Below, piece after piece: positions 3,878 to 41,922 of a DNA stretch of 64,000 bases. The stretch is from Paracyclopina nana (taxonomy: Eukaryota > Arthropoda > Copepoda > Cyclopoida > Cyclopettidae). The translations under genes and the position numbers were made by a program. Location: assembly GCA_019096065.1 (NCBI GenBank), contig JAGUCH010000001.1, positions 10,044,001 to 10,108,000 on the forward strand. Direction: 5' to 3'. The notes below the pieces were generated by a model. It was not told the origin of the DNA and did no database searches. It saw only the letters and a list, made by a program, of their open reading frames with translations. Numbering within the stretch: the first letter of the stretch is position 1; each line of letters starts with the position of its first letter.

Positions 3878-6800
3878 ATGTTACTTTTCTTGCAGGTTGC
3901 ATTAGCAAACAAGCACATGTTCCGAAACGTAAATAAACAAGCGCCATATTGGATCGGAAAATGTTTGACGCTTAGAAATGAATTGGCAAAAAAAGTGAAA
4001 AAGACGTTTCGCAATGAGGGACCGGCAGAGAGGAAACGTCGGCAGCGTGAAAAAGCGAAAGAAGCCGATTTGGAGGCTGAAAAGATAAGGCGAATAATAG
4101 CCAGAGATGAAAGGCTTCGCCAGCAACGTGGCATTTGCAAAAATGATGGGTGAGAAATTGACGCTGTCATGTCCAATTAGCAGTTGTATCAACTAATAAC
4201 ATTTCAAACAACTTCCGGGTCCATCAAATATCACACCTCTATCGCATCTCATGGCGCAACCCTTTGATGTCTCCGACATTAACAAGGAAGATGGACGTGC
4301 CGACAATGACATCCGGAAAAATTTGCTGACTAAACTGTTCCCTCAATTCAAAAAGGTGATTGGCAATGCTGCACCTGTAATTGCTCAGCCGAATCCCGAA
4401 ACGCAACGTTTATTGAACATTTCGAAAATGACGAAGATGAAAGAGCACAGCGATGGTGACTCTGACGAGAACGACGATAATGTCAATGTCTACAGCGAGG
4501 TGTATGACACACAAGAGTTATTCCCGGGTGAGAAACTTGTGGACAATCTGATCAGGCCAAGAAGCAGAGACGACTCCATCCAGACGACGTTGATGCAGCA
4601 CTTGAGCACTTGATTTTTTCTGCTGAAGAAAGTGACTGCTCCGACAATGATTATGACGACCAGGAGGATTTTACAGACACAATGTACATGCGCGAATTGC
4701 AGAGAAAGAAGTTCTTAGCAAGTTCAAGTGATGATGCTCAAAGTGCGCCCGTCTCCGATACTGACAACGAGATGGCTCTTTGCAACAATGGCGAAATTGA
4801 TGATGCAGCCATTGAGCCAGAAGCAATTGTCTCAAATGAAGCTGACTTCAACTACATTGAGCAATCAAAAGAAACTGATTCTGATGACGATGTTGCAGTT
4901 GATAACCAGCATAATGAACTTGTTCAAGCTGAAAGCCAAGCCTTGCATGACCAAGTAAATTGACAATCAAATTATTCCCTATATAACAAAAACTGATTCT
5001 CTCATTATAGCCGGAAAGTGAGTCATTATTGGCCAGCAGACAACACAGGCGTCCATCAGATGCTGATCAAAGTGCCAACAATATACCAAGCGACATTGAT
5101 TGTAATAACAATGTGGAGGAGGAGACGTTTTATGATTGCAACGATCATTTTGAAGACGATGAAGATTTGAACGATGCCGGTGCAACTAATGTTAACAGCA
5201 TCAGCAGTGAAAAGAACATTCACTTAAGGCACATGACAAGAAAGCAGTTTGATGAAGAGTTTGAGAAGGATAGAATGCTTCTAACTGACAATGAACGTGA
5301 TGATGCATTCCATCTGAGATACATGACTGTTGTTAATGCTCTTGGCCTAGAAGAAACTGCTAGTGAGTGCCTCTGGAACTTGATGGTCGCTGCTCAAAAG
5401 AACGCCGCAATAACGCAATTAGATACAAATCGCTTAATCACTTATCCGACAATGTGTAAACGATTTGAGAGTAAAGTGCCAAATGTCAAGATGATATACG
5501 AGTTTTTGGACACTGAGACTAACGAGACTGATATCTACTCAGGTGTGAAATTCCCTAGGAAAAGGTTTCCATGCCCACGCTACAAGCTTATGTCAGAATG
5601 GATGTACACGCCAATTGGGCTCTACTGGTTAAAGGCTAATCGGTAAAAGGCACCCTTTATAAATTCCATTTGCAGTTTGAAAACAAGACTCTAACAGAAG
5701 AAGAGTAGAAGCACCCGTTCGTTGACCTTTTCTTTGATGGTGTGCCATTGACTAAAAGCGGGGATGCACAAATGAACATTCTTTGTGCTAAATTTGACTG
5801 CAAAAAGGTGTACCCCATGGCTGTTCAAATTTATCGCAGAGGAAAAACTACTGAAATGTTAAGTCTAATTGACAGAGTAATCGATGACTGCATCAGTACT
5901 GGCATTTGCTTGAGAAGATTTAATGGCGACACGCCAATGAGGCTCAAATTGAAAGCAGTGGTTGGACACAATGGGTACTTCAGCTGTGAGAGGTGTTTGG
6001 CGATCGGAAAATATGATAAAAGGAAACACAAAATGTCCTATCCAGCCAACAACATGAACTATAAACTTCGAACTATAGAAGAGTGGCGCAACATTGCAGA
6101 ACAGTTGAAGGAAGATCCAAATGCGCTTCCCAAAAAGAAAAAAGAAACGTTACGGGATTCAGGGTTACTCGCCATTGCTACGACTACCATACTTTGACAT
6201 GATTAATGACTGCTGTGTTGATCCCATGCACAATGTCAGCTTAGGCGTTTGCAGGCTGGTCCTCAAATTCATTTTGGAATTTAAAGCAAGTGATAAGAAG
6301 ATGACTGAAGCCGGAAAAAACATTGCGCAACGCTTTGACAAGTACTGGATGCAGCTAGACTTACCTAGCGAATTTAAGAGATGGCCAAGACCAATAGCTG
6401 ATGCATTTATTCACTTCAAAGCGGTGGAATTCATAGCAGTTGCAACAGTGGGCTTCCATGCCATGTATTTGGCCCTTCTAGGTGAAGCTTATAGGGAGAC
6501 AAGAAAGCTGTGGTTGACTTTTGCATGGATAGTGCGCATGGCTTTAATGCCCGATTGTGTGTACCGCAAGAAAATGACGCCAGAAAAGTTGTTTGACATG
6601 TCTAAAAGGTTCTACAACCTTTTCCAAAAGGTTTATGGCGCTGGTGAATGTGTGTTCAATATTCACGCATTTTCACACATTTTCGAAGTGCGTGATCTAG
6701 GAATGCTCAGTAATTTTTCAGCACTGCTATTTGAGAGTTTCTTTTCTTTTGTAAAAAGAATTATCAAACCAAATACTTTGTGATTTGCAAAGCAACTGAT

Positions 6801-11100: not shown

Positions 11101-14100
11101 ATTTTAAAACTCTTTACAGCTATGGAATCCAGAGACTCAGCAGAACAAACTTTTATATCACAGCAAAGTTGATATTTCCTCTTTTATACCCGCTAATTCT
11201 GAGCTAACGGCCATGTAGTGCATAGTGAATAAGTCTGCCGTTTTGACCGTCTATTCAATGCCAAAATTCGAAAAATGCTCCGATTTTTGATCTCTTTACA
11301 GATTTGAAAATGTGAGATCAAACTGAACACTTTTTATTACATAGTAAACAAGATATCTCAGCTAGAAGCCTCCGTAAAACTCAGCAGTCAGGCTACTATT
11401 TAGCGGTAAACTTTGGTGCGCGATATCTCCGGTTCAAGACCAGATTTCTGGCTCCAATTTGATCCTGTGAAGTCAAGGCAACCTCCTCTACAAGGTTTAT
11501 TAGAAGTCCATGTCCGCATTTCCACGTTAAATCGATCGCCCAAAATTTGACGATACCCGTTTTTTGCGGAAATTTCCGCTTTAGAAGGCTATAATGTCAT
11601 CAAATTCATGAAATAGTCAAAGAAAAGACTAAAAGGAAGACTTAGAAGTAAGAATTCCCCCATTTACAGCTGTTTCAGCCCCAAAAAGACAAAAAATTCT
11701 GGCTAAAAAGGTTGATGAGGTCAGTGAGGTTGATGAGGAGAGTGAGGTAAGTGAGGTTGATGAGGCGAGTGAGGTGAGTGAGGTTGATGAGGCGGGTGAG
11801 GTGAGTGAGGTTGATGAGGCAAGTGAGGTGAGTGAGGTTGATGAGGCGAGTGAGGTGAGTGAGGTTGATGAGGTGAGTGAGGTGAGTGAGGTTGATGAGG
11901 TTAGTGAGGTTGATGAGGTTAGTGAGGTTGATGAGGTTAGTGAGGTTGATGAGGTTAGTGAGGTTGATGAGGTTAGTGAGGTTGATGAGGTTAGTGAGGT
12001 TGATGAGGTTAGTGAGGTTGATGAGGAGAGTGAGGTGAGTGAGGTTGATGAGGCGAGTGAAGTGAGTGAGGTTGATGAGGCGAGTGAGGTGAGTGAGGTT
12101 GATGAGGGGAGTGAGGTGGGTGAGGTTGATGAGGCGAGTGAGGTGAGTGAGGTTGATGAGGCAAGTGAAGTGGGTGAGGTTGATGAGGGGAGTGAGTGTG
12201 ATGAGGTGAGTGAGGTTGATGAGGCGAGTGAGGTAGGTGAGGTTGATGAGATGGATCGAACTTTGATCATCTAGATAAGGTGTCCGACGCTCTACTGACT
12301 GAGCTACCGATTTACTAAGAATTTTGTTGAAAGAAATTTGTTTTAACAATGACATTTGTGCTCTTCTACTAAGCTTAGCTCAGCTTAATAGAAGAGACTG
12401 TCCGACGCTCTACTGACTGAGCTACCGATTTACTAAGAATTTTGTTGAAAGAAATTTGTTTTAACAATGACATTTGTGCTCTTCTACTAAGCTTAGCTCA
12501 GCTTAATAGAAGAGACTCTTTCAGAGATACCAAACAAAACTTGATCTAACACATCTTTTAGCTCCAAAAAGTGCCAAATTCAAAATGCACACTTTTTAAG
12601 TGATTGATTAACACTTTCAGCTACTCTTGCACTACTGAGGGCCTCTCAACCCAAGCGCAGCCCTCAAAGTAATGGATCAAATGCTAAGTCAAGATTGCCT
12701 GGTCTGGTAACTTCATTAACATTTGAAAATTACTTACCATCATATAAAATTGTATATACCGTCTGACCGTTCAAAATTGGACGGTGCACAGTGGGGCAAA
12801 CGAAGTCCAAAAACTCGCATTTTATGAACAGAGCTTAAATTCATTTATATTGATAACATGAATGTAGCATTGCTAAGTGGCTCTTTTGAGAGATCGACTG
12901 GGATCTGGTAACACTTATCTGGTAGCACTAAACTGACGAAATCAAAATATTATTGTTTTTATTATGAAAGCTGAGTTTTGACACTGCGACGACGCACAGA
13001 TTGATGCAGACTTGGAAGTAAGGCTTTGGAGATGGTATATTCTTCAAGATTGTCGACAAAATGCTTTCCTTTTTGTAAAAGTACTTGTGAAAACAGGAAT
13101 AAATTTGATTCATTTGACTAATATGACTTGCACTTTATTGCCGCCAAAAATAAGGCTTTTTGTGAACACTTCTGTTTCCTCTTTCACCAAAATGGATCTG
13201 AAACGGCTTGATCTCCTCAATATGGTGTTGTCTACCAACAAGACTTCCCCAATGGATTCAAAGTTTCCAGAATATGTTAAGACATGCTTGCTGACAAAAA
13301 TAACTAAGAAAAGTGAGGATTTAACCTATGAAGAAAGAGCTGAAGTGAACAAGTTCGTGTCATACTTCTCAGAATGTTTATTGAAGTACTGGAAAAAGTG
13401 TCACAGAATGAAAGACAAAATGGTCACCAAGCATTCTGCATTCTTTGAAGCCAAGATCTCGTTCAGCTTTGACAATAAAGAGGGGGCTGCTGCTCTTCCG
13501 TCAGACATTGGGGATGGGAAATATCCAAAGGTAGATCATAAAAAGACAGCAAGATCATCACCTCCAAAGAAAAAATTGCGCACATCATTTCGTTCTCTGA
13601 GCTTGTCACAGCAGTTTCGTGGAGCAGCACAAGTTCGCACATCGGCAAAGCACGACGGTGCGGTAATTAAAGCAGCAGCACAAAATTTTCGAAGGATGGG
13701 TCATCATGCAGCAGGTTATGTGGTAGATGAGCTACAAGCAGATCCTGAAAAAGGAAAGTTCTTGAAAAGGGCTCTTAAAGATCCTGTTTTACCAGTCATG
13801 ACTGAAGAAGAAGCTCTTTCTGTACTGTTCGATCGTCGTTACTCTCGGATAAGATACAATGAGTACAGAGCTGATGTCAACAACCTTATTGAACTTGCTA
13901 TTAATACTTATGAGATAAAATTACTTACAGCTATAAGTCAATCCAAGCAGCTAAAACTAGGCTTAGGCCATCTGGTATTCATTACTCTGAAGACTGTGTC
14001 ATAGCTCCTCTGCAGCAAACTTTAGAGCACACAGCTTTGAGGATTCTGGAAGATGATGCAACAAATCTAAAGCTACATGACCTCTCCATCCATGCCCCTG

Positions 14101-17100
14101 TAAAGGTCACACTGATTTACAAGTATGGACTTGATGGTTCTCGTGGTCATGGCCAATATAACCAGCTTTGCTCATCACTGGGGGAAGATGGAGCCCTGCT
14201 TGCAAGCCATATGGTGCCACTTCAAATGCTTGCTGAGTGCAATAATAAGACATTGATCTTATACAGCAATGCTCAGGCCAACTCTCCTCAAGCTTGCAGG
14301 CCTCTTTGCTACTGGTTTGTTCCTGAAAATAAGAAAAACTTAGACAAGGAAATTGCTAGGCTCAAAAAGGAAATAGAGGAGCTGATTCCCCTTCAATGGA
14401 CTCCAAATGTCAAAATCCATTTCAAAGGATATTGTGCAATGTGTGATCAAAAAGTTGTCAATGTCCTCATGGATAATCCCAGCTCACAAAATTGTCCATT
14501 TTGCTCTGCCACCCCCACACAAATGTCCAATCCTGAAAGTGTATTTGTGCTCAATCCTGAGGCCTACAACATCATGTGCTTGTCAATTCTCCACTTTGGC
14601 TTAAGATCCTTCGAATTTGTGCTGAATATGGGTTACAACCAGGAGTTCAAGAAATGGCAGTGTCAAAAGATGAACAGAGATTCAAGGAAGAAAATGAAGC
14701 AGAAAATCCATGATCAACTTCTTGAAAAGTTAGGAGTCAGAGTGGGAGAGCCAAGAGATGGAGGATCTGGAACTAGTAACACAGGAAATGTGGCCAGGAG
14801 GTATGGAATGCAAATAAGTAGATTAACTGTTTAAACTAAATTAAAATTGTAGATGTTTTGAAGAACCTGAGTTCCTGGCAGCAATTTGCGATGTGCCTGT
14901 GGATCTTGTGAAGGGTTTGCACCGAATTTGGATTGCTATGGCATGCAATGTCATCTTGGACCCTGTAAAATTTGGTGACATGTGCAAGGAAGTCTTTGAG
15001 ATTTATGTTCAAAACTGTAGCTGGTATAAGATCCCACCTTCAGTCCACAAGATTCTTGAGCACGGAAAAGACATTTTGGAAGCACTTCCACCAACCATAA
15101 GTTGTGGAATGCTCTCTGAAGAGGGCTCAGAGGGTGCCAACAAAGACATAAAGTTTTGGGAGAGGCATCATGCCAGGCAAATGTCACGCCAAAAAAGAGC
15201 TCAAGATGTCTTCAATCGTGCAATGGATCGATCAGATCCCAAAATCTTGGGCCACCTAGTTGAAAAAAAGATGAAAATGCGATCTAAACGACCGATTCCA
15301 CCGGAGATTTTGAAACTCTGTAAAGTTCCAGATGTAGACTCACCTCTCAGTTCAGATGACACTGATGATGATGACAACTCTGAAGATGACGACGACGATG
15401 ATGATGACAATGAAAATGATGATGATGACATCAGTGATGCAGATTAAGCAGGCCAAAATGATTGAAATCTGCCGCCACCTTGGCTAACAAAGTCAACGAG
15501 TTTGTCTCAGTTTCTGCAGCTGCCGGCTGACGCTTATGCGTTCGCAATTCTGATAGCAAAAAAATCACGCAACCTCGTCTTTCAAATTCGTCGCAATAAG
15601 AGCAAAAGGTGCAAAAAGTTGCAAACTTTGCATTAATAAAGTATGATTTTCACACAATTTCTTCTCCAAATTCTTTGATGGAGTTGGTCCGAATCAATCT
15701 GATGATCTACGCTCACAGTTTTTTCCTTGATCACTTTTCCTGCCCATTTTGACACATTTTTCAGTAATAACACATTGCCACATGTCTTTTTAATGTAATT
15801 TTCATATATTTCAAGCAAAAATGACCATATTTGCGGTACTGATCACTCAGCATAAGGGCTCCAAAAAATCAGGCCTTTCAGGCCTATTTTTTAGGCCTAG
15901 TCGATTTCGCGTAAAAATCAAATGCGAGTTTTTGGCATAGAGACGGCTCCACTGTGCGGTGTGGGAATCAAAAGTTTGTACTACAAATTCATGAATTTTG
16001 TGGCTTAATGGGTATCGTTGGAAAGCTTGAACCTTTAGACATCTTTTTTGTTTTCTGACAAAATGAAAAATATTATAGTGAATTCCCCGTGACATGAAAA
16101 AATAAATGACTCACCAGTTTTTTCGTGAAAATTTTCCGGATTACCTTGGTAAAATTGAATTTTCCTGGTTTTTTCCTCCTTAAATTGATTTTTTCTACTT
16201 AAACAAAAAAGATGGAAAAAGGCTCAATCTTTCCAACGCTATCATTTAAAAGTCCTGTATTTCGTGAATATGTGACAAAAAGTTTAGATTCCGGTACCGT
16301 CCAATTTTGAACGGTCACACTGTATATGTAAACAAATTATAAAACAGGCTTACAAAATGTCTGAGCTCATTTTACAAAGAAAAAATCTCGTAGCATTACT
16401 TGGCTCACACAAGCTCGAGCCCGCAAAGTTGCCACTCAATTTTTACTTTACAAAATTTGCTCAGCAATTTTATTAGCTTGTTTTATAAATTGTTTACATA
16501 TATAATTAGATATTATTTTGTGCTGATAAAAGACTGCCAGTATTAGTAGTGATGCAAAAAGACCAATATACTTTAAGTACTGACCAATTAAATCAGTAGA
16601 ATCTACCTTAACTACTGAAAAAGTATACATTTTTATTTAAATGAGCAAATTCGATAGGTCACAGTCCACATACATTAGTGATTGTATTAAGTGATAATTT
16701 AATACTGGTAATTTCAGTAAAAGTGTTAATTGAAAAATCTACATTAAATACTGACCAACTAAATCAGTTGAATCTACCTTTACTTCAATTCAGAAAAAGC
16801 ATATACAATTCTTACTTAAGAACCAAAAAAGGGTTACGCGCATGTGTCCAGCTCCACGAAAAAGGCATAAGTTCAAACCTACTATACAGAGCGTCACAGA
16901 TTCCTTGACTGCCTTTACAGTTATAAGCATGTACTTCTCCAAAACTTATTTTTTTGATTTGCATGATAAGGAAATGTCTCAATGAAAATGTACCACAAGG
17001 AAATGTATCATAGCACTTTGTATCATGGGGAATTGTATCATAGGGAATTGTATCATATGGAATTGTATCATAGGGATATGTATCATAGAGAAATGCATCA

Positions 17101-23782: not shown

Positions 23783-26700
23783 TCACTTGACCCTCAAGGA
23801 CTTTTGCTTGTTCATGTTCGTGAGCATCAGCGATATGTAGGAGGTGAGGAGGTCATCCATCTTGTAGCCTAACGATGTTTCGCATAGCAATTTCGAGCCT
23901 CTCACGAGGTTGCCTATCGTCATATGGAAGTAGGTGTTGCCCGAGGACCAATTGGAAATGCGGGTGAAGGGATGCGTGACCAGAACCTCCTACAGTGCGA
24001 GCGAGCTGATAAAAAGGCCATTTTGCTACGCATAATCATCATTACCTTGGACTGCGGGTGGATGAGGCTCACGCCCTGCTTGTTGATGGCCACGAGCAGC
24101 ATTTCAGGATAGTTGGGGTCAGTTGTTTGCTTCACTTCGAAAAAGGCTGAGCCGAAGGTCGGCCACCTGAAAATCACCTTGAGAAAGGCCACTTTGGCGT
24201 CCTCGGGAGACATGCCAGAGTCCTGGTTGTAGCATCGAATAATTTCCCTCTTCCAGTCTGCAGTGGACATTTGCTTGATTAAGTCGGAGGGGACCAGCTC
24301 CCGCAACATTTGCGGCAGCATTTGCAACTCCTGCTTCGACTCGCCAAATTTCACTCGGTAGATGTGGGCAGCCAGAGCGGACGCCTCCTCTTTGGTGCAC
24401 TGGTGGTAGCCTTTGAAAGAAGTATTCTAATTAAACCTCTCCATTCCTCTTTCTTAAGGGCGTTCTCATATCGCATTTTAGTTTAACCAAAACTGATACT
24501 GGTTAGACCAAACTGACTTTTGTCCGGACAAAAGTCAGCATTCTTGTAGCGTTTAGTTTAACCAGAATCAGTGTGGTTTAACTAAAATCAGTTTTGGTTA
24601 GACCAAACTGCGATATGAGAACGCCCTTTAAAGACCGGTCAACATTAGTTCAACTCAATATTATAAGAGAGAGAGGACATCGAATCAAACTGAGATGTAC
24701 GCGTGCGCTCAAAATTCTACAAAGGGCTCTTTTAATTAGCCAACTTTTATTAAGGTTGAGTGATTAAGCATTCGGTTACAATCCGATTTAGCCCTTCACA
24801 TGATGCTCAGCTGCATGTGTCGCTCTATGTCCTCTCTCTCTTATAGGGCGAAACTAGAATTACCATATTTCTGCTAGCGGATTTTAGTTGAAACCATGGA
24901 GGGCTGAGAACTGCCTTGTCTAGGTGGACTCGCAATTAAAATTGGCTGGTTCTCTGAATAGAGGTGCAGTATCTTTTGGTTCTCCTTGGTTCTCTAAACT
25001 ACTTGTAGTTTAAAAGATTTCCTATGCTAAATATACCTATTTTCAAAGCCCTAGATTCAAAGATATTATCAAGTTTTTGAGGACTATTTCTAAAAATTAG
25101 GGACAATTCACTACTTTTGGGCTGGCCTTTTACAATTTTCTTAGCTTTTGCCATGCCAGTACAACAACTATAGCATGGCCATCATGATTACCAGAAAATA
25201 CTTTTTCCTCAATTCATTGCAAGAAATGGCTTATTTGTCAAAAAACTGGCTCTTTTTATTGAACCCACACTAGATGAACTTGTTTGTTTTGAACTCACAC
25301 ATAGTGGAGCTGCAAAAAGTAAGGCTATTTTTTCTTATTCGATCCTTCATGCTCAGGTCTGGATATGATGTGACTCATGATCCAAAATTTCTTGACTTTC
25401 ATGAATCTTGCTCAAAATGGTACCATTCTGTTCCTTGAATCAATTGTACTGTTACAAGCTCAAAAAGAGAGCTTTCTTTGTCATTTTGTTGCCTACAACT
25501 CTAAAAAACTTTTTGTTTACTTTTTGTTCGAAGCGCTATTTTTGCCGCAATTGCTACGCACGCTTACTCGTACGCCAAAGAACCAAAAATTCAGCACCAT
25601 CTATTGCATTTTGTCTGTCTTTTGCTCCCCATAGTATTGAGTTGAACCTGTACAGGGAAATGAGTGGACAATATAATGAAAGGGGCCAATACTTTTAAGG
25701 CCGATTGTAGTTATCTGTCTTGTGACCGTTCCAAAATAGATGCAAAGATGATTCAGCAAAAGGTTACGAAGCTTCCAATTTTTGGAGGCACAAACTCAAC
25801 TAGTTTTTTTCTTGGCGTTAAACAAATTAGGCCAAAAGCTTAGGACTGCACTGGTAGAGACAACTTGAGGTAACATTGTTCTTTCACGTCTGTCAGGGCA
25901 AAGCGAAGGGGCGATAAGAAAAAGGGGAAAACTTAAAAAAAATCTCTCAAGTTCTCATCAGCCTTTGAAAAGATTTCATTTTGTTAAAAGTTTTTCTTTT
26001 TGAAAAAAATTAATTCGTTTTTGCAACGCCCCTACTACCTCAACTTTTTCCCTGTCAATTTGGCTGACCAGTCTTTAGAAAAAACATGGAGAAGTTTAAT
26101 TCTAATAGCTGAAATCGCGTTACGCGCTAGCATGTGTTTTACCTCGGAGCAGTTTGGGCAGCTCTTGATGAAAATGGAAGATGACATCGGCGTTGCGATC
26201 CTTGCTCGGCACGGTGTTGGTCCAGAGCTTCTTCATGAAGAAGACTTGGTACGTGAACTGCGGCGTCGTTCCTGCAATGTTATCAAACGTTATTTATGAT
26301 GAAGCCGGTGCAAAATCGTTACTCACCATCGCGATTCGGCCTAGCTTTCTTGATCCAATCCGTGAGGTGCCTGACAAAGTCGAAGAAGAAGTCGCCCTCG
26401 GGCACTGAAATCACCTTGTCAGCGATCTTGACGAAAAGGCTGAACCCTTCGGCTGACTTGAGGTTTAGTCTTTGGGCAATGCTTGCGCAGAAATCCTTGG
26501 CTCTTGTCGAGGAGTCCACCTCGAAAGCCTCATCGGTGTCGTCGGGGAAGTAGACTTTGTGAAATATTTGCGTCGTTTTGTGCTGGATGGCTTCCACTTC
26601 GACCTGGTGCGGCGGGTACTTGCGTTGACCGTGCCTCAAGGTCTTCTGCAGCCTTTGTCCCGAGTCCAGAGCGATAGGGTGGCGTCGCGTGCGTTGGAAT

Positions 26701-29700
26701 AGCGTGAGCTCCTTCATCAGGGCCTGGCTGCACGCAAAGAGGCCGGTGGCGAGCCACATCAGCTCCCACCCGCGCTCCTCGCTCATCCGGTTCCGGTTGT
26801 CCGTCAACTGCTTCATGATCTGGCAGTAGACCTCGTCGCGCAGAATTTCCTGGGATTAGCTCAATTATACCTGTCTGCTCGACCGCGCATTTTGCAGCGT
26901 AACAGTTACAACTTTTTGACTGCAATTAAGCTTTCACTTTGAGACTTTTGCTTGCTTTACCATAAGCAAAAATAACTTGCTGCCAGTTTTAAGCCACAAA
27001 AGGAAAAAGCAGTTTTTGCTGTTGAGGTTTGGTGAATTTTTGCTTCAAAAGTACCTAATATGCTCCACGCATTACGGCAACTTGCTGAACTCGCAGAGTA
27101 GTGGATTTTGGTGAGAGTCTCTCGTTCTCAAGAACAGCTGAACTTTTTTGGGAAAAACATTGACTGGGGTACGACTTAAACTTGAGCTCCGATCGGAACG
27201 AAAACTTGAGTCGGTAGGAAGGCCAAAAGCCGCATTAAATACAGCATGATGTAATAAGCAGTAGAACAAAATACGTCGTATATACTACCCTAACCTTAAT
27301 TTAGACTTTTTTTGTTGGAGCTGCGTTATGGTTCTACTCTCGTCAATTTACACTGCTCTGGCTGAACTTCACTCTAAAAAAGCTGATCAAGTATATGTGC
27401 ACTCACGTGCTTGAGAGGACCCTCGAAGATCTGGTCCGTCAGCTCGTTGCCCGTGCGGGTCCTCCTCGACGGCAAATCGCCCATGTACTTCAAGATGGCG
27501 TGGAACGTGGAGCATGCCTCCTCGCGCAGCTCGTCCTTGTTCATCAGCTTCTTGAGCAGTGGCAGCTTGATGGGCTCGCGGGAGTGGCGCCAGACTTCGT
27601 CGCCACGCCCGCGGCCCCGGGCCGAGGCCAGCGTCAGCGACTTGGAGGCCGTTCTCTTGGGCGGTGGGCGGAAGTGGTCGATGGCGTAGTCCTCGAGCGT
27701 GTGCGGCTTCTCCAGAGGCTCGCTCCCATTGACGGCAGCCGCCCCGAACAGACGCCGGCCGTGTTCGGACGGGTCCATGGTGAAGAGAGCCTGCCATCAA
27801 ATCAGCCTCAATTCGTACACCAATCAGTGCATGGGATGAGCACTTACCAGAATGTCGTCCGGGGGCCTGTTGAGGCACGGCAGAACGTAGACGGCTTCCG
27901 CAGGAAAGTCCCCTCTCTCCTCGGTCCTCTCGCAAGTGCCCGAGCACCAACCGGAGGTAAGCACGGCCTCGCCGGAAGTGTCGTCGTCCAGCAGAATAAG
28001 ATCGCCCTTCACAAAGTTGAGGAACGTGGAGGATCCTTCGCCTGAAAAAGCAGCATGTGCAAATGCATAATTGGGGCGCTGCGTCTCGTGCATACCTGGA
28101 GCCTTGTAGTCCTGCAGGGCAATCACGAACTTGGATCGCTTCTTCAGCCCCTCCAGAAAATAGACGACGAGGTCTCGAATGTCTTCAGCGTTGGGGCTCT
28201 GGAAAGTGAACTCCTCAGAGCGGATGGTGGCCAAAGTGAAGGTCTGCGCAAATGCCTTGTTGCTCCTGCAAAACGGTGAAACTGAAAAGTTTTCCCTCTC
28301 GCTTCTGGCTAAGTTGCGGTACGGACAGGTTGCATGCGAGCTGGCGCTGCCTATGTGCATGGATAACTGTTCATGCGCGAGTCAGCAACGCTAGCTGCAG
28401 CCATTCTCTTTTCAAGTTGCATGCGCGCTTACTTCTGGCTGGAAACCCCGGTAATTTCGGGGAATGACAGCTCCAGCAGAACCTGCTCCTGGTCGTCCAC
28501 CACGTACACCCCGGTCCAATTGACGGCTATGATCACGTCGTTTTTCGGCAAATTCGGCCCCGAATAGCGGAAAGCCTCATAGAAGCGCGAGAAGAGGAGC
28601 GGCCACTTGTACTTGGCGTAGCTCACCACGTCCTCCTTCACCCTGTGCACGGGAACCTTGTCTTTGACGTAGTAGCTCTAAAAAGGAAACGACAGGGGTC
28701 ACGTTAGCTTCTGCAGCAGCAAACAGCATCATGCCTTCTTGTAAGCCTGCAAAATCAGATGATTCCACATCTCGCCGGCGTTGTCCCTCTGCAGGCAATA
28801 GTCAGGAATGTAGTTCGGGATCAAGCCTTGGAGGCGCTCCTCACTGAGGTCGGCACCGTATTCGATGTAGTATTGCTGGGCCGCGATCATGGCCAAATCC
28901 TCCTCCTTCTCACACCGATACTCTCCGAACTTGACCCCGCGGACGTTCTGCTGGTAGATCAGATTGGTGGCAACCGCGTCCTCGGTCGGATCATGCCAGG
29001 GGCTGCCAAGGTATATAGCGGACATTTTAGCGCATATAGAACAATCTCCTCATTTTATAAGGACTTTTGTCGAGTCCGGTCAGCACAGCTACCCAACGAA
29101 AAATTTTGAGCCTAGTTCAAACGCCAAAATAACGTACCCTCTTTGAAAATTTGTGCGTTTTATCCACTTGGAGTTTATGGCTCTATCTTCTGCGTTTTTG
29201 ATCGCGCTTCTTATTTACTGACGAGGTAGCGATAAGCATGCTCAAAGACGCTTAATAATATGAGCAATGCATATTACGTAATATTGACTTGCTACAAGAG
29301 TAAAATCGAAAACACCAAATTTCCGGTTCACCTTCGATTTTTTTGCATAGGTGTTAAGGCAGTTAATAGGGCGTTCTCATATAACAGTTTGGTCTGACCA
29401 AAACTGATTTTAGTTAAACCACGCTGATTCTGGCTAAGGTAAACACTACAAGAATGCTGACTATTGTCCGGACAAAATTGTCAGTTTGGTCTAACCAGTA
29501 TCAGTTTTGGTTAAACTAAAATGAGAACTGGTTGGGTAATACGGTCAAGTCAGATCGAGATGCGAGCGCGCGAGCTAGCTGTGACCTGACTTGTGCTGAT
29601 TTTGCTTGTTCGAATCGCATGATTTGAAAAATGTGCCAAACGGAAATAGTAATATTAGTGCATACCTGAAAATCTCCTTCCTGAAGAAGAGCCTCCATGG

Positions 29701-32700
29701 GGCGTTCCGCTCCTGAGCCCCCTGTTCCTTGGCGTACTGCTCGCACTGGGAAATGGCGTCAAGGACGTGGTCCCCCCCTGAGCCAAGGGAGGACACTTTG
29801 TCAAACAGGGCAATGTAGAGCGAGAACCCGAACTGGTCCTTGAGGCCAATCTTGTCCGACAGCTGGTTGCACAATTCTCTGGCGGTGGTGGCTGAATCCG
29901 CCAGCAACGTCTTGGTGTTGCCGTCCATGAAAGTGATGGGGAGCATCAAGGGCTTCTTGGACTTGGTCGCCTGAAGTTCGAGCCAGGAGGGCGGCTGGTT
30001 GCGGGTGCCGTTGTTGAAGGTTCGCTTGAGCCGCTCCTCGCAGTAGGGAGCGTAGCCAGGAGGGCCATCGCGGATGAAGGAGCGGAGGTGGCGGACGAAT
30101 CGCTCGGACGGGGCGAAGCAGCCCACGCAGAGGCTGAGCAATATCCAGCCGCGAGCATGGCTGCTCTTGCTCGGGTTGTTGGAGAGCTGCTTGCAAATCT
30201 GGCAGTAGATTTCATCGCGCAGCTCCGCGCGCAGGATGCCGTGGCCGATGATGAAGTGCAACTTTTCCAGGTTCGACGTCGGCCTCGATTCGAGCCAAGA
30301 GTTGTACGAGTCCGCGGTGTACTCCTCCTCCTGCAGTTTCTTCTTGATTTCGTCGCCCATTTTGTTCTTGCGCTTCAAGGTGAGCGACACGAGCTTGTGC
30401 CGGATGGACCTCGGCTGCTTTTCCTTCAGGCTGAAAGGAGGAATTAAAGAGTCTGCGCGCATGCAGTGAAAGGCCCATATATTGCATTACCTCGCGGCCG
30501 CGTTGCTCCCCTCCGCCACCGATGAAGCAGCCAAGGCTTCGGGATTGAGGCCCATAGCTTGCGCCTCTTGGAACTCCTTCGACCGAATAAAGTTCCTGCC
30601 CAGCGTTGCAGTCACTTTCATCATCACGGACGAGTTGTCTTTCTCCATGCTGTGGTATCTTGGCTCGGGGAGGTCACCCATGAAGCGCAAGATCGTTATC
30701 CATAATGCGAGGCTAGCCAGCTGGTCGCCCTGCGTCTGCAGCTGTAGCAGCGAGTGCTTGAGGGGCTTTTTCGAGTATTGATGATTCACGTTGCCCTGCA
30801 GACAATGCACTCGACGTAAGCCACGACAGACCTTTAAAAGCTAGTACCTGAAAATAAGTTGCTGCGAACTTGGGGAACTTGTACTCGGACAAGTCCTCGT
30901 AGTCTTCTGGGGACGTGGGAATGCCAGGAATGATATCCCCGTTTTGCACAATCTTGGGCATCGGAAAGTCTCTGAAAGCGGATGGCGCTTGACTTTCGCT
31001 CACGCTGTCCTGCTGGTTTTCCAGGAAGCCAAACATGTCATCGACGACCGCGGAATCGTCGATGGGTTGATCTGCTCTAAACTGGGCCCGCTCCACTCGC
31101 TCCCGGTTCTTCTTCATCATTTCGCGCTCGCGGGCCTCGTTCTCATGCTCCTGTCGCTCGAAGTCGTCGATTCGCTGCTGGAACTTCCGCTCGGCCTCCT
31201 CCCTGGCCTTCTTTTTGCCGTACTTTTTCTCCAGGGCGCGCGCCTCCTCCTCCTTGAGGCGAAGGGCCTCCTGGATCGCCCTCCGCTCCACCTGCAAGGG
31301 GTCATCTCAATCATGCATACATCTATAAGCGAGGTTCGTACCCTCATTTTACGATAGTCCCGCTGGGCGATCATTCTGCGGACGTGCGACTGTATCTTGA
31401 TGGCGGCCCACCGCCTTTTGGCAGCCTCGCGTCGCACCAAGAAGCCCCTGGACCGCGCCTGGAGTCGCATTATGTGGCCACGCAGGTGCCTGAATCGATG
31501 GCTCAGGATTCGTGAGCGAATTACGGCCTGCAGCCTCAGATACCCGTTTCGCATTCGCCGGTATTTCTGCTGGTAGTAATGGGCTCTGTAGTTTTTCTGA
31601 ATCACGATGGCAGCCGCTCGCATTTTCAGGAACCGGCGCCTAGCATACCACCCTGGAAGCAAGTGTCATCATCGAGCAAGCCTCGAACGCACTGATAAGC
31701 TCACCTCGAATGCATCTTTGAAGCACAAGTATTTTTTTGGTAAGCACTCGGTCTCGCTCCTGCTCAAGATAGAGGTCCTGGGCGTCTTTGAGGAACACCT
31801 TGGTCTTGCCAAGTTGATAATCGGACTTGCCAAGCACCGAGGAGCAAATTTTTGCAGTGGCCCCACGACAATCCTAGAAAAAGGCAACATAGCCCGGTCC
31901 CAACGAGGAATATCAACAACAACGGCAAACCAAATAAGTCAGGTCGAGCGAGCAGTAACCCGACTATGCTAATAGCCCCGTTCCAACAAGGGATTTCAGC
32001 ATATCACATATCGTTTCTTTCGCAAGATTACAATTTTGAGATGAATTAGTTTTGGTCATTAGGACAACTTTTTAACTATGAAACTCCGCTCTAGCAATTC
32101 ACTAACCAGTCTCTTGCCTTAAGATAAAATGTGCCCCTAGCTGGCGTATTTAAGTAGCAGCTATTGAAATACATTCAGAGGCTGTTTAAATACACTTTAT
32201 GCTATGAGCTATTTAAATAGCGTGACTATAAAACTAGCGAAAGACTAAGCCGTAAGGCCGATTTCATATTATCGAAGTCAAGCTAAGGCAAGCTAAGCTA
32301 GGTTCTATCTCAGCAAATACTGAGTGTATTGGCACCAAATTAGGTAGGATTCATCAAAATATCAACCTATAGCTGCGTTCCAAATTTGGTTAAGTTCCGA
32401 GGCCGTTTAGAAGAGGTCATTTTTTAAGAAAAGCTAGGTATCATCTAGCTTGTCTGTTTAGGCAGGTAAAGTCGGCCTATGGAAGGGATCCTCAGATTCA
32501 GATGAAATTTGGTATGGTGGCTTATTATGCTCTTCTTATGAATCCTACCAAATTTGGTGCCAATCGACTCAGTAGTTGCTGAGCTATAAGCCTCAAAAGT
32601 ACCTTGCTTTTTTGAGCTTGTCTTTGTGAAATCGGCCTGTAGTTGTGGGCTACCTAGAGATGCCTTTAGGATTGGCTAAAGCAACTGTGGAAAGAATCCC

Positions 32701-35700
32701 GCTGAATAAATGCGAAAAAACCGGTTTAGCTTAGCTAATTTTACCTTAGCTTAGCTTTTTCCGGCAATATGAGAACGGCCTAAAATATCATTAGCAGGTT
32801 CTCTCGACTGGTTCCCAATGCAACCTTTTGATCGATACCAAGTAACGGTATTTAAATACCCTTGTGTGGTGAAAAGCCAGGTATTTAATTACCTTTCCAC
32901 TACATAAGGGTATTTCGAAAGGTTGCATAACTGACCGACCCGACCATTAGCAGGTGACGCGGCCCGGGTATTTAAATACCCGTCACCTGCTAATGATGAG
33001 AAAACCTGCAAAGGATCGGGCCTAGTTCAACTCAATACTATAAGAGAGAGAGGACATAGAGCGACACATGCAGCTGAGCATCATGTGAAGGTCTAAATCG
33101 GATAGTAACCGAATGCTTAATCACTCAACCTCAATAAAAGTTGGCTAAGTAAAAGAGCCCTTTGTAGAATTTTGAGCGCACGTACGCGTACATCTCAGTT
33201 TGATTCGATGTCCTCTCTCTCTTATATAGTATTGAGTTGAACTAATCGGGCCATATTGTTGTTGAATGTCTTAGTCAGCTCTATATACAGCCTGAGTCGT
33301 CAAATACTTTACACGTTACAAATACTTTTAGATTGAAAGTGTAAAGTATTTGACGACTCAGGCTGTATATAGCACGCCGGTCACATTGGTCAAGACAGAG
33401 CGAGAAGTTAGCGATCACGGACGAACCTTGACTTTGTGGGCTGGAGGGCAGCCGGTGATGAGGAAACGATATCGATCGACAAACTCGTGGAAGGTGTGTC
33501 GAATGGGGTAGCCTGCGCGCCGTATGCGAATTGTCTCCATCATGCCCGAGTACCTGAGCTGGCGACAGCACAGCTCCCTGTCGAACATCTGCAGAGATGA
33601 ATGAATGATTAAACGCAAAAAGGCTGGAGGAGAGTGGACTTGCCAGCGGCTTCTTGAACTCGTTGGGCTTGATGCACCTGACGAAGAAGGGGTTGCACTG
33701 TCCGAGCGTGGTCATGAGGAGCTCGAGCGACTTTTTGAACTGACTCGACAGCGTGGGAGTTCTCTTTCTCGTCTCCGAGCCCATGTTGAGGTCCTCGGCG
33801 AACATGACCTGGAGGAATCGGTTTTTGGAGACGTGCACCAGCTGCAGCAGATCCGCGCTGAACGTGTCTCTGTTCTTCTCGAGGAAGCCCCTGGTGTCGT
33901 AGAAGACAACGCCGGCGAAGTGGTTGAGGCCGAAAGACGTGTTGATGTCCGACTTGGGCTTCAGGTAGTTGCGATTGTTGCCGTGTCCCCGGTGCAGCTT
34001 GTTGAGCATGGTCTGGTCGCTGCCCTTGGGAAACTTGCTCTCCTCGTCGATGAGGGCCATCAGGTTGAGCGGGCGGACGGCGATCAAGTCGAGCGCCTCC
34101 TGGTTATCCACGAACTCGATGTGGTGCCAGTTGATGGCCTCGAGGTTGTACTCCTCCTGCTCTAGCTTGAAAATGTGCTGCACGAAGAACTGCTGGAGGT
34201 TCTCGTTGGCGAAGTTGATGCAGAACTGCTCGAAGGAGTTGGAGTCGAAGTTTTCAAAGCCGAAAATGTCGAGGACGCCGATGGAGCTCCTCTCGAGGTC
34301 GGTGGCGCGGGCGTCCGGCTTGAAGATGGCGGCGTTGATCTTCCTGACGATCCAGACAAACAGCCTGCCGTAGATGCCCTTGGCGAAGGCGTCGCGCACG
34401 TCCTTGCTCTGGTTGGTGTTGAGCGTGGAAACGACGGACTCGCCCTGAGCAAAGATGGTGCGGCTGGTGAGCGCGTCGATGAGCGCCTTCGTGTTGACGC
34501 CGAGGATGGCAGCCACCCGCTCCACGTTGCTCTTGTCGGGGATGTCGGTGGCGTCGAGGTTGTCGATCACCTTGCCCTTGTACTTGATGTTGCCCATGTG
34601 GAGGAGGGCGGCGAGGATCTTGAGGATCTCCCAGATGTCCTGGTCCGACATCATGAGCACCTTCATGGCGGATCGGATGTCGGCAAACTCGGCGGCGTCG
34701 TCACGGCCCTCGCACACCACGCTGCTCCCCCCGCTGAGGTACTTGTAGTCGCTCGCCTCCTTCAGCTCCAGCTTGGCCTTGTGCTCCTTGGAGAGGCCGG
34801 CGAGCATGCAGTAGAAGATGTGGTAGTTGCGCTCCTCCTTGTTCTGGTGAACGATCCGCGACTTTTCCAGCAGGTACTGCTCGATCTTGGCCCCCTCGAT
34901 GACGCCGTTGCGCGTGAAGTGGATGTCGATGTACTTGCCGAAGCGCGAGGAGTTGTCATTGCGCACCGTCTTGGCGTTGCCGAACGCCTCCAGGATGGGA
35001 TTGGCCTCGAGGATCTGCTGCTCGATCCAAGAGTGCTTGCCGGAGATGGCGGCCAAGTACTGCAGGATCAGCTTGGTGCTCTCCGTCTTGCCGGCGCCGG
35101 ACTCGCCGGAGATGACGACGCACTGGTTCTGGCGGGTCCTCCGCATCAGCGAGTAGCAGTTGTCTCCGATGGCGAAGATGTGCGGCGGCAGCTCGCCGAT
35201 CTTCTTCTCCTTGTACAGCTGGATCTGCTCGGCCGTGTAGATGGGCAGGATCTGATAGGGGTTCACGGCCACGAGGATCGACCCCGTGTACGTGTAGATG
35301 AGGTTGTCGTTGTAGCGGATGAGCAGGTTGCGCAGGATGCCGGCCTCGTGCAGGTCGCCCAGGCTGATCATGTCCTCCACGCCCTGCACCGAGGTCGGGT
35401 GCATGGCCTTGATGCGCCGCTCGGGCGTCAGCCACACCTCCTCGCCGTCGTCGTCGATCACCTGGATCCTGCGGCCCTCGGCGGACATCACCCGGGCCCC
35501 GATGGCCACGTCGAATTCTCGCTTCGACACCGGCTCGATCCATATGTAGTCCCCCTGAAACGTACGTATGTAAGCTAGCTACGGCGTAATTTTGCGATGC
35601 ACGCACGGGAATCAGGACTTGCTTCTCGTCCTCCTCCACGCCCATCGAGGCTGCGGGACGTTTCGCTTGCATGACGTGGACTGACTAGCTGCTATCTTAT

Positions 35701-36334: not shown

Positions 36335-39300
36335 TCACGTCTCGTCGCGGCTGGAGACGACGGGGGCGGCCGCCACCGCCGGGCCTTCTTCGCCGTGGAT
36401 CAAATGCGACAGCTTCTCCAGGCTCTTCCTCACCTGCAACGGGAAGCGCGGTCATGATGCGCGCAAATGCGACAAATGCTACTATACCGAGGAGATCTGC
36501 TCGACGTTGTCGTCGAGAACTCTTTGTATCTGCTCCTTCGACTCGTCGGCCTCGTTCGACGTCCATTCCACCTTCTTGGGGTAGCGAGATTCCACCTAAA
36601 AGAAAGATGGGCTTTCAGAGCGCTTCCGAGGCCCGCACGCATCGTACCTGTCGTTGCAGCGAATCTATCCTGAAGACCAGGTAAAGGGAGGAGCAGAAAA
36701 GGAAGACGAGAAGGACGACCACGAACACCGAGAGAAGGCTAGATTTTGATACATGGCCCAGAAAGGCCCCTGGCCCGTGAGTGAGGCTCGAACTCCTTCT
36801 CAATGCCGTGGAGTCAGCAGGCCCTGTGCCCAAGGAACAAGTTTTAGTCACGCTTCGTCTTTCATTTCTTATATGTAATGCATCATGAGCGGCGTATAGC
36901 GTCGATAGCATTTCGCATTTGCCATTCAGCATAATTTTTCTTTTTGAATAATTTTTTAAAGGTGAACTTTTTACGGTCTCGCCTCTGAGCTGAGCACAAG
37001 GCGGCGTTCCCGTATGCCTCTTTTTCGTAACTATGCCGTCGCTGGACACGGAAGGATTATTTGTGGCCCCAATGTTTTTCCATTCATAAGTATGACCCCA
37101 ATCGGCAAAATTTCGCGCGGTTAATGCCAATGATTGCAAATATCACGTATTTGTGATAGTATTTGATGGAAAGCAATTTTCGCAGTTAACCAATTCGTCT
37201 CAGTTCATATAACTACACATATATATTATCTATTTATATATGTAAACAATTTATAAAACAAGCTAATAAAATAGCTGAGCAAAAATCGAGTGGCATTTTT
37301 GCGGGCTCGAGCTTGCGAGAGCCAAGTAATGCTACGAGATTTTTACTTTGCAAAATGAGCTCAGATATTTTGTAAGCCTGTTTTATAATTAGTTTAAATA
37401 TATATACGATTTTATATGATGGAAAGTAATTTTCAAATGTTAATGAAGTTACCAGACCATGCAATCTTGACTTAGCATCTGATCCATTACTTTGAAGGCT
37501 TGGGTTGAGAGGCCCTCAGTAAGGCAAGAGTAGTTGAAAGGGTTAATCAATCAATTAAAAATTGTGCATTTTGAATTTGACTCTTTTTGGAGCTTAAAGA
37601 TCTGTTAGATAAAGTTTTATCTGGTATCTCTGATAGAGACTCTACTCTTCTACTAAGCTTAGCTCAGCTTAGAAGAAGAATAAAATGGAATTCTAACAGC
37701 AATTTTTCTAACTGTAATGGTAGCTCAGTCAGTAGAGCGCTGGATTCCTAATCCTGGGGTACAGGGTTTGATCCCCATACATGGCATTTTTTCTCCTTTT
37801 TTCTGCAATCGGATTTAGTCCTTGGACAATGTCATTGTAACAGAGGAGCAACACACCAAGATGATCTGTAGTATAAGGTGAGCTCGTGTCGTAGGTTTAC
37901 TATAGCACTCGGCCAGACTATGCTGTGGTAAGCTTGTAGACTAATTTTAATAGAGCACTGTGGATTATGCATCTTCACATTTAAGAATTTAGCCAGCTAT
38001 TGACTCAAAATGCCAAATGGGCTACGAGTTGGATTTTTTTCTGAACATATCTGGTAGCTCAACAGAAAGAGCGTGAGATTAGCCGGCTTGCCAAGAATTT
38101 CATCGCACCCTCGCGCTATGAAGTAAACTACATTAGCGCCCCCTTCACTTAGACGAAAAACTAAAATAGATTGAGTGATTTCAAGTTACTTGTTACCGTC
38201 AACATTTGCCATACGATATGGGGCTGCAACACACCTTATAAAATACTTTATAATGTGTGTCAATTGATAAAGTTAAACGTCAGAGCTTTTATATATGTGT
38301 AGTAATATGAACTGAGACGAATTGGTAAACTGAATTATACATGCGAAAATTGCTTTCCATCATATAAAAGCTCTGACATTTTACTTTATCAAGTGACACA
38401 CATTATAAAGTATTTTATAAGGTGTGTTGCTCCTCTGTTTGATCATGATATAGGGAACCGTAAACGGTACCATATTTATCCTTCCGGCGAGCTCATAAGA
38501 TTTCAGACGGCTGATCGCTTATTACGCTGCGCCGTCTGAATAAGCAAAATGCCTAATTTTCTTTATTATTTCTTGCAAGGCATAATTTTTACAAGCTTAA
38601 GTAGAGCCTTAGTTTCAAGTAGACCAATTATATTTACATCTTACTGTATTATGAGTGCTATATTTCATGAAAATCCATCTTTTCCTAAAATTCCAGGCTG
38701 GCCTTTGGGCTGGCTTAAGGGCAAGCTAGAGCACTAATTAAAAGTGTTCCCAGATTGACGCATTAAATTTAATTGGCTTTTTTAGCAGGAAGCTGGCTCT
38801 TTTTGACTTTTTTATGCAGTTCACATCTAGTGGCTCATTTGTTGAACGTTTCAACTACGCTCGCGCACTGATGACGTTAAGCCGTCTGAACTAGTTCAAC
38901 TGTATTATTCAGTCCATCTACTGCAGTCAGCTTGACTTCGGGTTCCTATTGTCCAAGAAGTAAATCCCATTGCAGAAAAAAGTAAAATAGGAGAAATAAT
39001 GCCCTGTGCTCGTATGGGGATCGAACCCTGAACATCAAGATTGGGAGTCCAGCGCTCAATTGACTGAGCTACCATTACAGTTAGAATTCCGTTTTATTCT
39101 TTGACTAAGCAGAGCTAAGCTTAGTAGAAGAGTAGAGTCTCTATCAGATATACCAGACGTAACTTGATCTAACACATCTTTTGGCTCCAAAAAGTGCCAA
39201 ATCCAAATGCACAATTTTTAATTGATTGATCAACGCTTTCAACTACTTTTGCACTACTGAGGACCTCTCAACCCTAGCCTTCAAAGTAATGGATCAGATG

Positions 39301-41922
39301 CTAAGTCAATATTGCCTAGTCTGGTAACTTTATTGACATTTGAAAATTACTTTCCATCATATAAAATCGTATATACAGTCTGTTTCAGAGATATCTACGC
39401 ACTTTGAAATCAAAAGTTTGTGTTACGGATTTGATAAATGCTAGACATAATGGATATCGTTGGAAACCTTGAAACTCTGGTCTTCTTTTTTATTAATATC
39501 ACTTTTGATAAAAATTAATTAAGGTTTGGATTAAAAGCCTAAAATAAAAAAGCACTCAAAAATGGCACCCATTTTTTTGATGGCAATGCACACATTTCAA
39601 AATGGTCAAAATTGCGAATTTTGTCGTTTTTTTTTTTTCGATAAAGGATTAATTGTTCTTCTCAGCATTAAAATACTAATGGTTCATCAGTGATTTTGAT
39701 TTTATTATGAAAATGCTTGATTTTAGCTGAATTCAGTAGGTGAAAAATTGCACTTTTGCTCTAAAAAAGTTGCCACGGAAAAATTTAATTTTCTTATCTT
39801 TTTTACTTTTATTTTGGGATTTTCACTGCTACAAAATAGATGGCAAAAGATTCAAGCTTTCCAACGATATCCATTTTGTACCGCATTTCTCAAATCCGCA
39901 ACACAAACTTTTGATTTCAAAGTGCGTAGAATTCTCTGAAACAGGCTGTATATGTAAACAAATTATAAAACAGGCTTACAAAATATCTGAGCTCATTTTG
40001 TTAAGTAAAAATCTTGTAGCATCACTTGCAAAGTTGCCACTCGATTTTTACTTTACAAAATTTGCTCAGCTTTTTTATTAGCTTGTTTTATAAATTGTTT
40101 ACATATATAAAATTATTTTTCAGGTTTCATCTTGACAGCTAAATAGCGAATGCTACTTAATGTTTTTACCTCAAAAAAAGCTCCATAGTCGTCACGTTGG
40201 AAAACTTAATTGTTTACTCCACTTTTGGTAGCGCAATCTGAATATTTTCGCAAGCTTTCATAAAGGTGTGAATTCGCGCCTGCAGGCCGATTGAGGTGAA
40301 GTCTTGCATGCTAGTGTGTTTTCAAGGTAGGATGGAATTCGTGTTTTCACTTAAAAGACAATTGAAAAAAAAAAGAAAAAAAAACATGACTTAGGTATGA
40401 GCAAAAGTCCAATATGAGAATGCCCTTTTAAAAGTCTCTTGTTCTGCATGTAGAGAATTCATGGTGGCGTTTCCGCGGTCATCATCGATTCTTATGTAGT
40501 TCCATCACAAACCTCCTCAGCACACAAAAATAATTGGCTTGGTCGCTATGAAATCTCCTGAAGAGAGAGACTAGCCTAAATTGCTGCCATCGCAACCTCG
40601 CAAATGCACAAGAATAAATAACGATAGAAGACGCAGAAGAGCCATTGGAGCCACTTATCCTCTGACGCTGCAACTTCTTAAGTATCAAACTAACTCTTTA
40701 CAATTGAACCTAGCTTAAGTGGGGACTAGAGGTCACCTGATGAAGGCGCGACGGAGGCCATGATGGGAGCCGTGGTTGCCTGGTAGTAAAGAGTGCCGTT
40801 GTTTTGGCTCATTCGCTTGACAACGTAGGATGTTTCCAGGGTGTTGTTTACCTCGGAGACGCATGGCATCAGGGTCTCATCTCCGGGTGGCTCGGAATCC
40901 GAGCTTTCGTTGATGATGTCGTCGAGCTCCCCGCCATCGTGCGCGTCGGACTGAAATGGTGGCAAATGTTGGAAAGCGGAGCTGGGTTTGCTTGCTGAAC
41001 GTACCGCTTGAAGCATCAAGTCCGTTCTCCCTGCTCCACGGATGGCGCGCTTCCAGATGCTCGTCATGAGCTTGAACGTGGAATCGCGGGACAGGAGCGA
41101 GGCGAATATATGCTTGACATCGTCCTCCGTGCTCACGCCCACCGCGTTCGGAATGATTTTCGCCGTTTTCTCCTTGGTGATTTTCGTCACCGACCGCACC
41201 GGGATTTGCAACTGGAATAGACGCGCGCATAAGCTAAGTGCGTATGGATGCCCCCCAACTACTTCGTACCCTGGTCACGTAGCCGAATACGTTGGAATGG
41301 AAGGCGAAGTAGTTTTCCGTGATGTAGAGGTGTCCTTGCAGCAGGATGTCGCTGACAAGCGCGCACGAGTATCCTGAAAGACGAATGCTAGATGAACGCG
41401 TATCAAAGCGTAATGATGCGCTAGCTCGCAGTACTCTGCAGCACAACTTCCTCTTGCGGCAGTTGCTTGAAGTTCTTGATGAACTTTTTCTGCCTCGACC
41501 GGTTGCCGCTCGTCTGGTGGTGTTGCTGCTCCAAGTCCGACTCCGAGTCGTCACCGGCGGCGGCCACGGCCGCGGCCACCGCAGGGGACACGCCGTGAGC
41601 CGTCAAGTCCCCGCAGCTCGCCTTGCTTCCCGAACTGGACTGATGCCTGAGCCCGCTGAAATGCATGATGAGCATTGAATTGCAGCGGAGACACTTTCGG
41701 TCTACGCGCATCTACCTCTCAAGCTCCGTGGGCTCGTCGTTGACGTAGGGAGTCCGCGTCTCATGGCTCGGCTGCGCTTCCCTGGCTGCCTCGCAAACGG
41801 CCTCGAACGGGTTCACCGAGGTGGAAGAAGTGGATTTGCGTTCGTGTTTCGGACTCCCGGGTGCGGAATGCGACCAAGTGTCGCTGCTGCCTCCTCGACT
41901 GTTGCCCGCCGGCGGCCGCCTG
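36335..41922 (-). CDS. GRAMD2-like GRAM-domain membrane protein (5' end not resolved)
   Basis: Exons from the 5' side: about 41922-41716, 41655-41435, 41373-41270, 41211-41005, 40950-40737, 36823-36648, 36595-36488, 36433-36335. Phases fit and the stop is at 36335-36337. The product shows a Ser-rich N-terminus, a GRAM domain (FKQLPQEEVVLQRYSC, DILLQGHLYITENYFAFHSN, KEKTAKIIPNAV) over exons 2-4, a 70-residue Ser/acidic linker, then one hydrophobic segment (LLSVFVVVLLVFLFC) near the C-terminus followed by a short coiled tail. GRAM plus a C-terminal membrane anchor without a VASt domain is the GRAMD2A/2B layout: an ER protein at contacts with the plasma membrane. The start codon is probably upstream of 41922 and I could not choose it. 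The 3.9-kb intron (40736-36824) is filled by nested transposons. Confidence 0.85.
37710..37790 (+). repeat. tRNA-like core, left arm
   Basis: GGTAGCTCAGTCAGTAGAGC (A box) and GGGTTTGATCCCC (B box) stand at tRNA spacing, with anticodon-loop TTCCTAA. TGTA-ATGG could pair with CCATACA if one base is bulged. It is likely a tRNA-derived SINE head or pseudogene. Confidence 0.55.
37840..38438. mobile_element. Inverted-repeat MITE (ACAGAGGAGCAACACACC ends) split by a MULE-like insertion
   Basis: ACAGAGGAGCAACACACCTT and its inverse at 38438 pair over about 50 bp when the 368-bp insertion is left out. It sits between the two arms of the larger element. Its centre holds a fragment (GCGAAAATTGCTTTCCATCA) shared with 37.16, 55.43 and 60.09 kb. 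Confidence 0.75.
37858..38225 (+). mobile_element. 368-bp element with 10-bp duplication, copy 1 (Mutator-like?)
   Basis: It starts AAGATGATCTG, ends GATATGGGGCT and is flanked by GCAACACACC at 37848-37857 and 38226-38235. The second copy is 47775-48139 in reverse orientation with a 9/10-bp duplication. The ends show no inverted repeat. An internal GGTAGCTCAACAGAAAGAGC resembles a tRNA D-arm. Nine- or ten-bp duplications suggest Mutator-like mobilisation; a tRNA SINE with fixed ends is the alternative. Confidence 0.75.
39003..39085 (-). repeat. tRNA-like core, right arm
   Basis: Read on the minus strand: GGTAGCTCAGTCAATTGAGC and a perfect B box GGTTCGATCCC. It is the counterpart of 37710-37790 with a different anticodon loop (CTCCCAA), so the two arms have diverged. 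Confidence 0.55.
39375..39949. mobile_element. 575-bp element with ACAGTCTGTTTCAGAG ends at a TATAT site
   Basis: ACAGTCTGTTTCAGAGA at 39375 is inverted at 39949 (TCTCTGAAACAGGCTGT), with ATAT at both ends. It shares internal words (GATATCGTTGGAAA) with the MITE family at 12758 and 55621. It interrupts the right arm at the same point as those two. Confidence 0.8.

Follow-up and report, generated by a model that had tools for sequence, protein, structure and literature searches.

The DNA analysed here is a 64,000-nucleotide stretch of the copepod Paracyclopina nana (assembly GCA_019096065.1, contig JAGUCH010000001.1, positions 10,044,001 to 10,108,000 of the forward strand), referred to below as the window and numbered from its first letter. 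At 12787-15956 it carries a transposon of 3170 bp, consisting of a single gene between inverted ends that resemble recombination signal sequences (RSS). As judged from its sequence, the element can be assigned to the Transib superfamily as a new member. It splits a copy of a miniature inverted-repeat transposable element (MITE), and an uninterrupted relative of this host repeat lies elsewhere in the window.

Element ends, target-site duplication and host repeat

Each inverted end of the element begins with CACAGTGG, and the exact 16-mer CCAAAAACTCGCATTT is common to both. The left terminal inverted repeat (12787-12822, plus strand) is made up of the heptamer CACAGTG, a 13-nt spacer, a nonamer-like block (CCAAAAACT) and then CGCATTT; the right one (15920-15956, minus strand) has the same heptamer, the same nonamer-like block CCAAAAACT and the same CGCATTT, with a spacer of 14 nt. 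Both ends thus open with the RSS-like CAC heptamer looked for in a Transib. Directly outside them stand two perfect copies of a 5-bp target-site duplication, CGGTG, at 12782-12786 on the left and 15957-15961 on the right. Duplications of 5 bp are typical of Transibs, according to a passage of PMC4411706, and CGGTG fits the form CNNNG given for Transib MITEs of Helicoverpa armigera in one section of PMC7764229. The inverted ends and the perfect duplication had been described in the first-pass annotation of this DNA, and both are borne out.

These features differ in the weight they can bear. CACAGTG or CACTGTG occurs six times in the 64 kb. An inverted 8-mer flanked by a 5-bp direct duplication is, on its own, weak evidence for ends, because the combination is frequent by chance (1439 cases in 100 shuffled windows, against 25 in the real window). 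If a further inverted 12-mer within the first 50 nt is also required, no case is left in 100 shuffled windows and six are left in the real one; the identities of these six were not output, and the element satisfies the test through its common 16-mer. This positional control supersedes an uninformative one, in which an inverted 16-mer anywhere in the element was present in 20 of 300 shuffles. The register of the nonamer is our choice: with CACAGTG taken as heptamer, it is the one that agrees best with the RSS nonamer consensus. The match is 7 of 9 positions at both ends, and since 1005 of 20000 random 60-mers of the window score equally at some spacer, the nonamer reading alone is not strong. 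As to base composition, the element is poor in CpG (observed/expected 0.45 across 12787-15956, against 0.79 in the window); the ratio is 0.09 at 14000-14999, and adjoining 1-kb stretches range widely, from 0.0 to 0.73.

The host repeat split by the element extends over 12640-16420 (plus strand), with the ends of the MITE near 12759 and 16323, inside a longer repeat. The uninterrupted relative, which serves as an empty site, lies at 55524-56107 on the minus strand. Aligned from 56107 to 55524 with the joined flanks, in which both CGGTG copies were retained, it is identical in 527 of 614 columns and 5 bases shorter at the duplication, so that the empty site holds the single CGGTG that had been reported for it. 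BLAST sets the 5-base gap partly within the second CGGTG copy; removing one whole CGGTG from the joined flanks instead leaves one mismatch beside the duplication. The similarity between flanks and relative continues past the MITE into the longer repeat. Because the relative is a diverged paralogue (86% identical, about 14% diverged), the empty site backs the insertion but gives no date for it: the divergence dates the repeat family, not the arrival of the Transib, and it does not show the element to be active or recently so, as had been suggested.

Two further copies of the longer repeat are found in the window. One, at 37305-37514, matches both flanks of the MITE, joined at the MITE border, and the other, at 45722-45819, matches the right part only. 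The copy at 37.4 kb looks like a site without the MITE, so the MITE, too, probably arrived by insertion, its target being the longer repeat. A long in-frame tandem repeat, readable on both strands, immediately precedes the host repeat at 11629-12274.

The transposase and its relatives

The gene is on the plus strand and is read in three exons. Exon 1 (13192-13913) encodes the N-terminal region. Counted from the second ATG of the open reading frame (ORF), which we take as the putative start (the first ATG is at 13123), this region amounts to 240 aa. Exon 2 (13914-14800) encodes the transposase core, with the first and second catalytic Asp and the Cys pair of the zinc ligands. After an intron of 52 nt with GT-AG borders (14801-14852), exon 3 (14853-15447) supplies the His pair of the zinc ligands, the catalytic Glu, an acidic C-terminal tail and the stop.

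Read through from exon 1 with an X at the frame change discussed below, the protein matches HzTransib, the transposase of Hztransib from Helicoverpa zea (PDB 6pqn and others), at E = 1e-54, the match reaching chain position 11. Exons 2 and 3 alone match it at E = 1e-25 and E = 2.6e-21, respectively, and identity across the core is 33%. The core is thus homologous to known Transib transposases, and the Transib/RAG1-type identity first proposed for the element is upheld. The catalytic triad of Hztransib, given as D126, D225 and E436 in a passage of a review (PMC6941560), falls on D (codon 14133), D (14445) and E (15130), each at the same offset of 17, and all four zinc ligands are kept (Cys at 14493 and 14502; His at 15046 and 15061), so that the DDE triad and the zinc-ligand pattern are both present as had been claimed. 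No catalytic positions for Transib were obtained from PMC8230255. A Thr at codon 14781, where HzTransib has Asp (chain position 321), was considered as a lost catalytic Asp and rejected, the published second Asp being elsewhere and conserved. The motif around this Thr is otherwise shared with HzTransib; the change need not be harmful, since RAG1L has Ala in the same column, albeit in a weak alignment.

Outside the core there is less to compare. Exon 1 alone gave no match in a PDB search up to E 10, and its last 74 aa gave a single, unrelated match (E 1.5); a 17-aa stretch near the end of exon 1 resembles the N-terminal end of HzTransib. In Pfam none of the three exons was assigned to a transposase family, all matches falling below the curated cut-offs. 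At the other end of the protein the tail is acidic, with D or E in 22 of its last 33 residues, and is encoded by an Asp-codon-rich, repeat-like stretch; the C-terminal tail of vertebrate RAG1 is likewise described with acidic residues in part of PMC7204232.

It is hardly credible that the element is instead RAG1-like, of the RAGL or ProtoRAG type. The enzyme family is the same, and a two-sequence profile of the element's protein and HzTransib also finds RAG1 (E 4.6e-09) and RAG1L (E 1.1e-08), but the protein is not nearer to RAG1 or RAG1L than to Transib: its match to HzTransib is far stronger than the one to RAG1L (1e-54 versus 0.0015). Moreover, only about 405 and 509 bp lie outside the region from the exon 1 ATG to the stop, which leaves little space for a RAG2-like gene; none was seen by eye in the element's list of ORFs of at least 60 aa, and no RAG2 profile search was run.

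Gene structure and the frame change

The 52-nt intron at 14801-14852 is convincing as a real intron: among the GT-AG introns of 30-160 nt that were tried it gives the best match to HzTransib (score 491, against 468 for the next), and its donor agrees with the consensus at 6 of 9 positions. The junction of exons 1 and 2 is harder to read. The frame of exon 1 is open to 14004 and that of exon 2, a different frame, is open only from 13914, so the frame changes near 13912; within the frame-change zone (13905-13930, plus strand) a frameshift is probable, and a weak intron at 13863-13930 is possible. Twenty-one candidate GT-AG or GC-AG introns, with donors at 13700-13904 and acceptors up to 13939, join the two frames openly, their donors agreeing with the consensus at 2-6 of 9 positions. 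The resulting proteins score 482-494 against HzTransib, exons 2 and 3 alone 491, and plain read-through (with an X) 506. Since none of the 21 introns reaches the score of read-through, a small frameshift near 13912 is the most likely explanation, although the margins are small.

The frame of exon 1 is open throughout 13715-13914, which only 9 of 3000 shuffles of that stretch equal, and exon 1 is therefore probably coding up to the frame change. A 200-nt first intron at 13715-13914 was judged unlikely in view of this openness; it would also delete the part that resembles HzTransib, and it does not outscore exons 2 and 3 without exon 1 (491). As a further possibility, programmed -1 frameshifting was weighed: no convincing slippery site was seen by eye, and a Transib precedent is not known to us, no search for one having been made.

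Several observations weigh against a complete Transib copy with a frameshifted gene. The donor of the 200-nt candidate agrees with the consensus at 6 of 9 positions, equal to that of the accepted intron; the N-terminal match to HzTransib is modest, its score being reached by 60 of 5000 shuffles; and read-through raises the score by no more than 15 units above that of exons 2 and 3. To these must be added the 68-nt GT-AG intron at 13863-13930, which would restore an open frame. With this as the most likely short first intron, and the second intron as above, the three exons would be joined and the element would be intact and potentially autonomous. The length of this candidate is near that of the 52-nt intron, it is among the two best-scoring of the 21 (494), and the catalytic and zinc residues of the protein are intact; its openness in frame 1 is compatible with an intron, because 282 of 3000 shuffles of the 68 nt are also open. 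Its donor is weak, however, agreeing with the consensus at 3 of 9 positions (against 6 of 9 for intron 14801-14852), its removal would delete 18 residues for which HzTransib has counterparts, and it scores below read-through (494 versus 506). We regard an intact element as possible, if rather unlikely.

A sequencing or assembly error, the true copy running continuously from exon 1 into exon 2, is a considerably poorer explanation and quite improbable. No other frame problem was found in the roughly 2.2 kb of coding sequence, which would suit such an error. Against it, another part of the window holds a myosin ORF of 765 aa that is unbroken and whose residues 67-644 match the myosin head; at least there, indel errors are infrequent.

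A small frameshift thus stays the preferred account, and the uninterrupted coding looked for in an autonomous Transib is here probably broken near 13912, the introns that could bridge the break being only weakly supported. The first-pass annotation had called the gene all open and the element apparently intact. The first statement holds for exons 2 and 3, joined by a good GT-AG intron, and not for exons 1 and 2, whose frames differ with no well-supported intron between them; the second holds for the structure and the clean ends, and is doubtful for the gene because of the frame change.

Elsewhere in the window no further copy of the element's DNA turned up at E 0.001, and neither other transposase fragments (best protein matches E 0.36 and 0.91) nor other element ends (best match 13 bases) were convincing. 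No relatives were found in viral contigs, GTDB genomes or phages, misses that say little because these collections are expected to hold few animal sequences. Among the neighbouring features, minus-strand exons at 26319-35578 belong to a gene of the myosin VII type, consistent with animal DNA, and encode a motor head together with MyTH4 and RA-like domains; a minus-strand ORF at 40726-41274 has a GRAM domain, and two plus-strand ORFs at 5011-6783 have, by eye, the look of a disrupted DNA-transposon gene, with no Pfam match at E 0.001.

Proposed history and comparison with known elements

We hypothesize that a cut-and-paste Transib inserted in one arm of a MITE copy lying in a longer dispersed repeat. 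By analogy with HzTransib and RAG, a Transib transposase would have bound the two RSS-like ends, excised the element by nick and hairpin, and joined its ends to the target CGGTG, cut with a stagger of 5 bp, which gave rise to the duplication; for Hztransib and RAG, a passage of PMC6941560 describes how the cut at the end leaves a hairpin on the flank. Only the products are seen at this locus (the ends, the duplication and the empty site), and the cutting is read across from those two systems. On the sequence data, a nested insertion of a structurally complete copy, its gene most likely bearing one small frameshift, is the probable history. If the frame is indeed broken where exon 1 meets the core, the element would probably make no full-length transposase of its own; since the two ends look sound, transposase from another source could still mobilise it.

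It is improbable that the locus holds a Transib that is still mobile, in which two short (12-type) spacers of 13 and 14 nt go together with a transposase ending in an acidic tail. Acidic parts of RAG are thought to restrain transposition, and if such an element were mobile one could test on it whether a tail of this kind has that effect.

The copy had been singled out as uncommon, which has some support. Known Transibs encode a single protein, and autonomous ones typically number one or at most a few copies per animal genome (both according to passages of PMC4411706), so that a near-complete copy is no everyday find. A search for papers on Transib in ticks turned up nothing to the point. Complete ones are nonetheless well documented in the portions of the literature cited here: Hztransib was described as a full-length 3518-bp insertion with a 5-bp duplication (PMC1852546), 40 Transib sequences and 32 full-length copies are tabulated for H. 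armigera (PMC7764229), and Transib-like proteins number hundreds in metazoans other than ctenophores (PMC9435367). As full-length Transibs with 5-bp duplications are already published, the element is an ordinary member of its family and no surprise. It adds one well-delimited Transib with RSS-like ends and a readable nesting (repeat, then MITE, then Transib), and helps to catalogue the variety of RAG1-related transposons, with no current view altered.

The nearest known system is Hztransib. Both elements have a transposase gene, inverted ends and a 5-bp duplication, they are of similar size (about 3.2-3.5 kb), and their DDE positions and zinc ligands are alike. They differ in that the proteins are 33% identical across the core and that the element has an extra N-terminal region of about 200 aa, an acidic C-terminal tail and a probable frameshift; it also has at least one intron, the intron content of Hztransib being left out of the comparison. 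RAG1 and the RAGL (ProtoRAG) elements share with it a related DDE core and an RSS-like heptamer, and differ in that the sequence match is just weak and that no RAG2-like gene is seen by eye in the element. With regard to the ends, the legend of Figure 2 in PMC8355894 gives spacers of 20-22 nt or a 12/23 asymmetry for Transibs; the element resembles these published ends in having a heptamer and an A-rich nonamer-like block on both sides, and departs from them in its spacers of 13 and 14 nt, both short in the chosen nonamer register, which would be a small variation on Transib ends.

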